IMG/VR virus record: IMGVR_UViG_3300017713_002817
Coordinates: 1 to 31,314 of that record
Source: a virus
Strand: one strand, 5' to 3'
DNA: 31,314 bases
A program made the position numbers and the translations under genes. Position 1 is the first letter of the stretch. The number at the start of each line of letters is the position of its first letter. Below, piece by piece: positions 5,379-6,460 of the stretch. The notes beneath the pieces were generated by a model. The model made no database searches, had not been told where the DNA came from, and saw only the letters and a list, made by a program, of their open reading frames with translations.

Positions 5379-5408
5379 AAAAAAGTGAGCAGTCAGCTCA
5401 TTTTTTTT
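5373..5408. repeat. Direct repeat, copy 1 (terminator plus -35 box)
   Basis: About 35 bases identical to 11142-11177, covering the hairpin, its A/T arms and the GTTTAC promoter element. Looser copies of the T-tail plus -35 part are at 23239 and 27588 onward. Confidence 0.85.
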
Positions 5409-5409
5409 T
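5379..5409 (-). terminator. Rho-independent terminator, part of a repeated terminator-promoter unit
   Basis: On the minus strand an A-rich arm plus TGAGC, the loop TGACT, then GCTCA and a run of T residues. The GNAT gene's TGA stop is in the loop. The T tail runs straight into the GTTTAC box of the next promoter. The same sequence recurs at 11148-11178. Confidence 0.85.
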
Positions 5410-6001
5410 CATTGAGTATGTTTTCTCTAGCTTCACGCGGCAAATAAGGTAGTTGCACGTCAGCGTATACAATTTTCTCTGATACACTATCGTTCAATTC
5501 ATTTTCAGCATGCCAGTTTTCAGATCTTATCATTGTACCATTTCTGATATATGCTTCAGATTCTATCATTTCTCCGACTGGCTTAAATCCTACTGCTTCG
5601 TATGTCTTAAGAGCTTTATCTCGAGGAAACGTCCAGACTACTTCAAACTGACGTAATTGAGCGTACTGACATGTTGCTCTAAGCAAAGCTTGACCAATGC
5701 CATTACCAGCGGCTCTTGGGTGTACCCATAGTCCTCTTGATCTAAATCTATATTTTGATGTTGGGTGGCCACTGTTGACGCCAATAATCATGTTTTGATT
5801 AGCTCGTTCGTCAAAGAATGTAGCGCCAAAGAATACTGGTTCATAGAGAGCATAGATCGACTGATCAGTTTCTTCCAATACACCGGGATCTAACCCAGTC
5901 ATACTTGACATTGGCTTGATGTCGTCTCTACCCGGCCAAAGCTTTTCCCAGAACGGGTATATCTCTTCATACGTAATACGTTCAATAGTAACTTGTGTCA
6001 T
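5393..6001 (-). CDS. GNAT-family N-acetyltransferase
   Basis: A 202-residue protein. ATG at 6001 has GGAG 6 bases upstream; a TTG four codons earlier lies in the tmRNA and is unlikely. The acetyl-CoA binding core is visible as LWVHPRAAGNGIGQALLRA (Q/RxxGxG/A type, about residues 99-117), followed by TFPRDKALKTYEAVGFKPVG, the usual GNAT beta6-beta7 end. The substrate cannot be predicted. The gene follows the tmRNA coding piece by a few bases, with its ribosome binding site at the tmRNA 3' end, so it shares that transcript. Its stop lies within the terminator hairpin. Confidence 0.85.
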   Translation of the reverse strand: MTQVTIERITYEEIYPFWEKLWPGRDDIKPMSSMTGLDPGVLEETDQSIYALYEPVFFGATFFDERANQNMIIGVNSGHPTSKYRFRSRGLWVHPRAAGNGIGQALLRATCQYAQLRQFEVVWTFPRDKALKTYEAVGFKPVGEMIESEAYIRNGTMIRSENWHAENELNDSVSEKIVYADVQLPYLPREARENILNEKKMS

Positions 6002-6011
6002 AATATGCTCC

Positions 6012-6188
6012 AAAAAGAAGTGCCGGATTCTGTTTCCACGCTCCGGCGGGCGCAGTAGTTTATGCCGCGATGGCGTAATCTACAGGTGCAAAGTTATCGT
6101 TTGCGTTTAGTCAAATCTTGCGTTAACCCAGCTTGCGCGGGATAGCTCCACTTTCCTATTAACCACCAGTCGATCCTGTTTCGCCCCC
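6012..6188 (-). ncRNA. ssrA: tmRNA coding piece (permuted ssrA): 5' tRNA-like end, tag reading frame
   Basis: Minus strand begins GGGGGCG at 6188, followed by AAACAGGATCGAC, the conserved 5' end of alphaproteobacterial tmRNA. The tag frame starts at the resume codon GCA (6104) and ends at TAA (6062-6060): ANDNFAPVDYAIAA, with the expected AND start and a hydrophobic AIAA degron end. After the tag a stem GCCGGA/TCCGGC with a 14-base loop is seen. GGGGGCG pairs perfectly (one G-U) with CGCCTCC of the acceptor piece, which lies upstream on the transcript, so the gene is circularly permuted and yields a two-piece tmRNA. The 3' limit is estimated from the hairpin and the following GNAT ribosome binding site. 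Confidence 0.93.
6060..6104 (-). other. tmRNA tag reading frame ANDNFAPVDYAIAA
   Basis: Fourteen codons plus TAA on the minus strand (6104 down to 6060), inside the tmRNA coding piece. The tag is translated onto stalled nascent chains during trans-translation. The ending AIAA matches the ClpXP/ClpAP-type hydrophobic terminus (LAA, VAA) of bacterial tags. Confidence 0.9.
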
Positions 6189-6189
6189 A

Positions 6190-6378
6190 TCATAAAGACA
6201 CTGAATTCACTGGTTTACAGATATATTCAACTGTATCCCAAGATCCATCAGCTGGCACTTCCGCATATTGTACAAGCATCGTTTCACACTTTGCTTTCGT
6301 TTCAAACCATTGCACATCTTGTTCTAAGCAGGTCGAGCCTGAACAAACTGTTAATAGTATATGCCAAATCATTTCCAT
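6190..6378 (-). CDS. Small Cys-containing protein encoded inside the tmRNA intervening segment
   Basis: A 62-residue protein, ATG at 6378 with AAGGA 9 bases upstream, that site beginning just past the encoded CCA of the acceptor piece. Its TGA stop (6192-6190) ends one base before the first G of the coding piece (6188), so the gene fills the intervening segment almost exactly. The N-terminus MEMIWHILLTVCSG is hydrophobic; later parts include CLEQDVQWFETKAKC and VEYICKPVNSVSL. The pattern (hydrophobic start, QDVQWFETK, IPADG-like turn, VEYxCKP) is familiar from roughly 60-aa proteins of marine phages with unknown role. Four cysteines could form disulfides if the chain is exported. Confidence 0.8.
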   Translation of the reverse strand: MEMIWHILLTVCSGSTCLEQDVQWFETKAKCETMLVQYAEVPADGSWDTVEYICKPVNSVSL

Positions 6379-6393
6379 CGTTCAATGTCCTTA

Positions 6394-6460
6394 TGGTGGA
6401 GGCGGCCGGTACTGCCCCGGCGTCCTGTCTAGCTTTCGAATTGCTTCATCACTATAATTC
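6394..6460 (-). ncRNA. ssrA: tmRNA acceptor piece (permuted ssrA): T arm, acceptor 3' strand and CCA
   Basis: Minus strand ends with CGCCTCC, discriminator A and an encoded CCA (3' A at 6394). The preceding T arm is GCCGG, the 7-base loop GGCAGTA, and CCGGC. CGCCTCC pairs with GGGGGCG at 6188-6182 in 7 bp; the third pair is G-U, the identity element for alanyl-tRNA synthetase. In the transcript this piece precedes the coding piece by about 205 bases, the permuted order known for alphaproteobacterial tmRNA. The 5' limit (about 6460) is a guess just after the stop of the 28-aa ORF. Confidence 0.9.

Follow-up and report, generated by a model that had tools for sequence, protein, structure and literature searches.

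A predicted small protein gene nested in the intervening segment of a permuted phage tmRNA

What, if anything, does a phage keep between the two pieces of its tmRNA? The intervening segment (IVS) between the two pieces of a permuted tmRNA is normally discarded on maturation, and this spacer has hitherto been treated as empty. The question is raised by a virus record of 31,314 bases, here called the window, in which a permuted tmRNA gene lies on the minus strand at 6456-6019 and has a 205-nt IVS. The gene was matched by Rfam model RF04321 (tmRNA_permuted) at 6456-6060 (-) with 94.5 bits (E 2.4e-17; full-length match, 1-213; curated cut-off, 47 bits) and by RF01849 (alpha_tmRNA) at 6505-6019 (-) with 78.3 bits (E 7.4e-20; curated cut-off, 50 bits), the RF01849 alignment reaching the 3' end. 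Both covariance models thus score above their curated thresholds and bear out the initial annotation, which had read a phage-encoded, circularly permuted two-piece tmRNA here and had named a search with the alpha_tmRNA model as one way to check it. The interval that it gave, 6012-6460, was correct to within a few bases; the minus strand, the 205-nt spacer, and the ORF nested there on the same strand had escaped it. The tmRNA of the window was not detected by ARAGORN.

The order of the pieces is permuted, with the acceptor piece encoded first, then the IVS, and the coding piece last (Table 1). As had been noticed from the letters, the acceptor piece carries the T arm and CCA, and the coding piece begins with GGGGGCG; the two strands form a seven-pair acceptor stem (G-C, G-C, G-U, G-C, G-C, C-G, and G-C) in which G3-U70 is present. 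The tag frame, ANDNFAPVDYAIAA, also reads as first proposed. It is an AA-ending degradation signal with the tag resume region present, and it was identical to no bacterial tag in the sample. The initial annotation suggested that the RNA may replace or compete with host ssrA. In piece order, G3-U70 stem, T arm, CCA, resume region, and AA-ending tag, the window resembles the permuted tmRNAs of RF04321 and RF01849; it differs from them in having an IVS of 205 nt with a conserved protein gene, whereas bacterial IVSs are mostly 81 nt or shorter. A gene for a GNAT acetyltransferase lies about 17 bases past the end of the tmRNA on the same strand.

Table 1. Features of the tmRNA locus in the window (positions are those of the whole window)
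Feature	Position	Strand	Basis
tmRNA acceptor piece	6394..6456	-	T arm; 5' end approximate, from covariance model (RF04321 starts at 6456)
Acceptor 3' strand CGCCTCC	6398-6404	-	within acceptor piece
ACCA	6394-6397	-	end of acceptor piece; CCA read directly, ends at 6394
IVS, 205 nt (predicted loss during maturation)	6189..6393	-	bounded by CCA and GGGGGCG; insertion in RF04321 alignment
IVS terminal helix, 5' strand CAUAAGGACAUUGAA, includes Shine-Dalgarno sequence	6381..6395	-	MFE fold, z -3.47; covariation across phage IVSs
Shine-Dalgarno sequence AAGGA of nested ORF	6388..6392	-	read directly; starts 1 nt past CCA
Nested ORF MEMIWHILLTVCSGSTCLEQDVQWFETKAKCETMLVQYAEVPADGSWDTVEYICKPVNSVSL, 62 aa	6190..6378	-	homologues, dN/dS, invariant Cys, predicted fold
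IVS terminal helix, 3' strand UUCAGUGUCUUUAUG, encodes last nested codons and start of stop	6191..6205	-	MFE fold, covariation
Stop codon TGA of nested ORF	6190-6192	-	inside conserved TGAT leader
tmRNA coding piece: putative pseudoknot region, tag, 3' hairpin	6019..6188	-	RF01849, and RF04321 to 6060; 3' end approximate
Acceptor 5' strand GGGGGCG	6182-6188	-	coding piece begins at 6188
Tag frame ANDNFAPVDYAIAA and UAA stop	6060..6104	-	direct reading and script
GNAT acetyltransferase, next gene downstream, tmRNA neighbour	5393..6001	-	Pfam PF13508 2.1e-8, PF00583 5.9e-8

The DNA polymerase encoded in the window is 53% identical to that of phage C48C1 and 47-48% identical to those of T4-like cyanophages, and this identity of 47-53% to T4-like marine phages places the window phage among the T4-like phages. 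The initial annotation was right on that point, but its view that a permuted tmRNA is unusual in such a phage is not supported. The T4-like methylophage Melnitz has a two-piece permuted tmRNA, which recurs in 17 of 47 related contigs, and the same study reports 53 tmRNAs of the two-piece form from phage genomes, 50 of them from marine or aquatic samples (PMC9004378). Since marine myophages with permuted tmRNAs have been described before, the headline reading of the locus is not new (PMC9004378). The latest tmRNA database paper mentions 79 phage tmRNA sequences; for the IVSs of permuted tmRNAs it records one with a tRNA gene and one with a repeat, and it records protein genes in group I introns only (PMC11915505). 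We found no report in the open-access literature of protein genes in the IVS of a permuted tmRNA, and a nested, exchangeable gene at this place appears to be new.

The window IVS has the layout TAAGGACATTGAACG-ATG...TTA-TGA-T-GGGGGCG, in which 62 codons are followed by a stop that ends 1 nt short of the coding piece. In viral contigs, 49 loci had a homologue of this ORF, and one is present in all four Melnitz isolates (4/4). The family lies inside the IVS at 19 parsed loci, where its position is nearly constant; the other copies are mostly ordinary genes that share the strand of the tmRNA and lie 100-590 nt upstream of it, with a few downstream or elsewhere, and some phages that have such a gene beside the tmRNA hold a different ORF in the IVS. 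Among the nested copies, the median dN/dS was 0.158 (range, 0.077-0.248; 50 pairs, counting-based), and four cysteines are invariant together with much other sequence. AlphaFold predicted a strand-strand-helix-strand arrangement for the 62-aa protein with a pLDDT of 89.5. Purifying selection, the Shine-Dalgarno (SD) sequence, and the homologues elsewhere together indicate that the nested ORF is a protein-coding gene. It matched no Pfam or PHROG family, and Foldseek gave no match to the protein below E 1e-3. An anti-CRISPR role is not proposed, as the highest-ranking solved structure, a small chain taken from work on type I-C CRISPR-Cas3, was not a significant match.

Three known arrangements can be set beside this one. 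The Melnitz ssrA (MZ577095-MZ577098) also belongs to a T4-like marine phage, is a permuted alpha-type tmRNA, and has the window ORF family, as gene 85. However, its gene 85 homologue lies just upstream of the tmRNA, whereas in the window that homologue lies within the IVS, and the IVS of Melnitz holds a different ORF, MFKWLSKTRLVVITRDYF..., which is unannotated beneath 'SsrA'. In tmRNA genes with group I introns, some of which have LAGLIDADG genes, a protein gene likewise lies within a tmRNA gene, but those genes are in self-splicing T-loop introns and the window gene occupies the spacer inherent in a permuted tmRNA (PMC11915505). A group I intron or homing endonuclease was rejected for the window locus, which had no Rfam intron family at the gathering threshold and no Pfam endonuclease. 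The third case is a nominally archaeal metagenome-assembled genome (MAG) in which a permuted tmRNA has tRNA-Ala in its IVS, so that a second gene sits there as in the window; this is an RNA gene and a single case, whereas the phage IVSs described here have protein genes of many families (PMC11915505). No tRNA genes were found in the phage IVSs by ARAGORN.

The comparison set, drawn from pattern scans of viral contigs and an ORF search, comprised at least 189 phage loci in which both pieces were parsed by simple rules on fragmentary metagenomic contigs; the loci listed contain 143 distinct IVSs of 9-266 nt. We call an ORF spanning if a single frame runs from just past CCA up to the coding piece. 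Among the distinct IVSs of the loci listed, such an ORF was present in 26 of 28 with lengths of 170-300 nt (0.45, at most 3, in dinucleotide shuffles), in 14 of 17 with lengths of 130-170 nt (1.6 in shuffles), and in 27 of 27 with lengths of 90-130 nt (5.7 in shuffles), the shortest class being one that may include chance frames. When the count was limited to listed loci found by pattern rather than via the ORF, 55 of 151, or about one-third, had a spanning ORF. The 67 distinct nested ORFs of the loci listed fall into roughly 28 unrelated families (phmmer E<1e-3); 61 of them start with ATG, and 52 have an SD-like tetramer, against an expectation of 18%. Nine other family sets with enough divergence gave median dN/dS values of 0.05-0.37 (counting-based), indicating purifying selection, and 2 of 31 representatives had a Pfam match (DUF6356 and DUF2061); no function was recognised for the nested proteins. 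Of the listed ORFs, 21 have their stop codon 1 base before the coding piece, 25 have it within that piece, and the other 21 stop earlier; the tmRNA leader or coding piece supplies the stop in 46 of 67. Unrelated nested proteins share the C-terminal residues VSL, GAK, GAN, and GLK because their last codons are tmRNA sequence. Nesting helps to explain why annotation misses these small genes: the Melnitz ORF is one example, and ARAGORN detected 15 of 35 loci with long IVSs, compared with 63 of 84 with short IVSs.

Close comparisons between loci show how the nested genes move. Between the window and L004-L013, the IVS is 90-96% identical, whereas the acceptor and coding pieces are just 45-69% identical. 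The reverse case is that of L160 and L212, which come from different metagenomes and match each other at 99.9% over 2,639 bp and at 99.1% over 534 bp. Their acceptor and coding pieces are identical, yet the ORFs nested between these identical flanks are unrelated; across 3.2 kb at >99% identity they differ almost solely in the nested ORF. L077 and L120 repeat this arrangement of unrelated ORFs in matching flanks, and in the pairs L043/L044 and L141/L171 a nested ORF in one member corresponds to no ORF in the other. Some nested genes, such as those of L069, L071, and L129, have homologues in other phages that are ordinary genes close to the tmRNA. At the sequence level, these cases demonstrate that nested genes are exchanged as cassettes. 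The IVS would then be a defined hot spot for the swapping of small proteins among marine phages and a new place to seek host-takeover genes.

Bacterial loci parsed by the same pattern look different. Among the 97 listed, the IVS was 81 nt or shorter in 94, with a median of about 29 nt. In 129 genomes of the SAR11 order, the permuted tmRNA matches listed span 181-191 nt, and the loci retrieved have IVSs of 5-12 nt where these could be parsed and short tags. It is unlikely, given these short IVSs, tags, and spans, that the window tmRNA is a simple copy of a SAR11 ssrA. In L267, a bacterial MAG contig (Rhodobiaceae MED766), a membrane-type ORF of 49 codons lies in an IVS of 184 nt, with bacterial housekeeping genes around the locus, and nesting is therefore not strictly confined to phages. 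Next to this tmRNA, which lies near 6560 of L267, an ORF at 5519-6022 presumably encodes a protein resembling SspB. L306, a nominally archaeal MAG contig, has a nested ORF of the L094 family and looks like a misbinned phage. The 201-nt spacer of the bacterial genome G114 contained no clear nested gene.

The ends of the window IVS form a 15-bp helix, CAUAAGGACAUUGAA/UUCAGUGUCUUUAUG, in the predicted fold (z -3.47), and in phage IVSs generally this end-to-end pairing prolongs the acceptor stem. Among the loci listed, helix pairs 4, 5, 7, and 8 were standard in 81-98% of distinct phage IVSs versus 49-74% when partners were re-dealt; in IVSs of at least 90 nt the helix pairs were standard in 85-99% versus 41-68%, and in IVSs with nested ORFs positions 5, 7, and 8 were paired at 0.94-0.99 versus 0.41-0.68, a control that leaves relatedness in, yet several pair types occur at each helix position. 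In the predicted folds, the window SD is unpaired with a probability of 0.61 when a nascent fragment is folded and of 0.00 when the full precursor is. The corresponding medians for 52 loci were 0.55 and 0.23; the value was lower in the full fold at 33 loci and higher at 7, and L094 is among the loci where the SD is equally open in both folds. Upstream of the acceptor piece the window has no clear sigma-70 promoter; among the distinct loci listed, the upstream motif TATAAATA was found at 110 of 161 and TTGAC..TATAA at 94 of 161.

We consider it likely that the window locus, from a marine T4-like phage, is a functional permuted tmRNA of the alphaproteobacterial type whose IVS is a docking site for small protein genes. 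Anatomy, conservation, coding selection, cassette exchange, and helix covariation are established by sequence comparison, and upon them a mechanism can be modelled. Transcription would begin near the acceptor piece and proceed through the nested ORF into the coding piece. Both tmRNA pieces would then be released by RNase P and a 3'-end nuclease, a processing scheme modelled on known two-piece tmRNAs (PMC3985003). Once paired into the tRNA-like domain, the excised pieces would act together with SmpB and ribosomes of the host to rescue stalled ribosomes, appending ANDNFAPVDYAIAA. Translation of the nested ORF from its own SD would give a 62-aa four-cysteine protein. Because the closed helix pairs the SD with the last codons, ribosomes would load mainly on nascent RNA, before the 3' strand of the helix is made; closure of the helix would end loading and commit the RNA to tmRNA processing. 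As the helix buries both the SD and the stop in the window, we infer a competition between translation of the nested ORF and maturation of the tmRNA, to which we give somewhat less than an even chance. Since the SD is open in the full fold at some loci, such as L094, this competition may fit part of the set only. With similar reserve, we suggest that the phage IVS may be a dedicated, exchangeable docking site where an RNA can either have its cargo translated or mature into tmRNA, but not both, so that the gene for a rescue RNA doubles as a one-shot expression cassette. The nested proteins are probably diverse small accessory or takeover proteins. If they are translated, a stable RNA and a protein gene would share one transcript and a common fate, and ribosome rescue would be linked to phage gene expression.

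Among the alternatives, the most probable has the nested genes hitch-hiking passively: the IVS would be a neutral insertion site tolerated behind a promoter in a compact genome, with no regulatory coupling of translation to maturation. The presence of many unrelated families and the movement of genes near the tmRNA into and out of the IVS would be expected under this explanation, and the SD is not sequestered at all loci. Covariation of the terminal helix is also seen in short IVSs that lack ORFs and, in part, in bacteria, so that the helix serves processing in any case. Yet the SD or the stop falls inside the helix in the window family and several others, and the 46 of 67 ORFs that take their stop from the tmRNA leader or coding piece tie the two functions together. 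We regard hitch-hiking as a serious possibility that falls a little short of even.

A second alternative, which we think unlikely, makes the nested product self-limiting, with late translation of the excised message being tagged by the same tmRNA. With the stop offset by +1 in 21 ORFs and within the coding piece in 25, cleavage at the 5' end of the coding piece would leave many messages with a terminal stop, as in the window, or, where the ORF ends inside the coding piece, with none. Self-tagging is nevertheless a pure deduction, and the T that supplies the TAG stop occurs at equal frequency with and without nested ORFs and shows no sign of selection. It is less likely still that the tmRNA has decayed and is retained just as a vehicle for the small gene. 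The RF04321 score of 94.5 bits compares with mostly 113-162 bits in the bacteria searched, and the coding piece is shortened in some relatives; that of L004 is so short that not every such tmRNA need be active. However, among the phage loci listed, G3-U70 was found in 187 of 187 and a complete 7-bp acceptor stem in 186 of 187, the tags are intact and end in AA, and the tag resume region is conserved. Finally, the locus could be nothing more than a permuted phage tmRNA whose long spacer has no function and contains a chance frame, the tmRNA itself being ordinary, permuted phage tmRNAs being known, and some of the shortest ORFs perhaps being accidental (5.7 spanning frames in shuffles of the 27 IVSs of 90-130 nt), but this is highly improbable in view of the 26 of 28 long IVSs with spanning ORFs against 0.45, the dN/dS of 0.158, the SD enrichment, the confident predicted fold, and the homologues that are ordinary genes outside the IVS, and for the window a chance ORF is refuted by homologues, shuffles, and selection.

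Several smaller observations were made in the phage set. In L159 and L164 the IVS is long and contains remnants of an L129-type ORF that form no clean frame; these may be nested genes in decay. Some IVSs of 78-85 nt that lack a clear ORF have internal sequence conserved within each of three groups (L055/L089/L123/L199, L101/L161, and L081/L184) and may encode small structured RNAs. The coding pieces of L004, L005, and L050 are shortened between the acceptor strand and the tag, where the usual upstream pseudoknot region is apparently missing. Tags of 29 residues, which is unusually long, occur in the phage tmRNAs of L074, L125, and L163 (for example, ANDNALSNVTFVDFSAPVTAVNEDFALAA). A glutamine riboswitch (RF01739) was found at 4602-4650 of L051 (Melnitz) and 3106-3154 of L044; it starts just past the coding piece of the tmRNA (end at 4594 in L051) and ahead of the next gene, which in Melnitz is a late-transcription coactivator. 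It has been described as located in the 3' domain of ssrA and as controlling ssrA (PMC9004378); by its position it could rather control the downstream gene.
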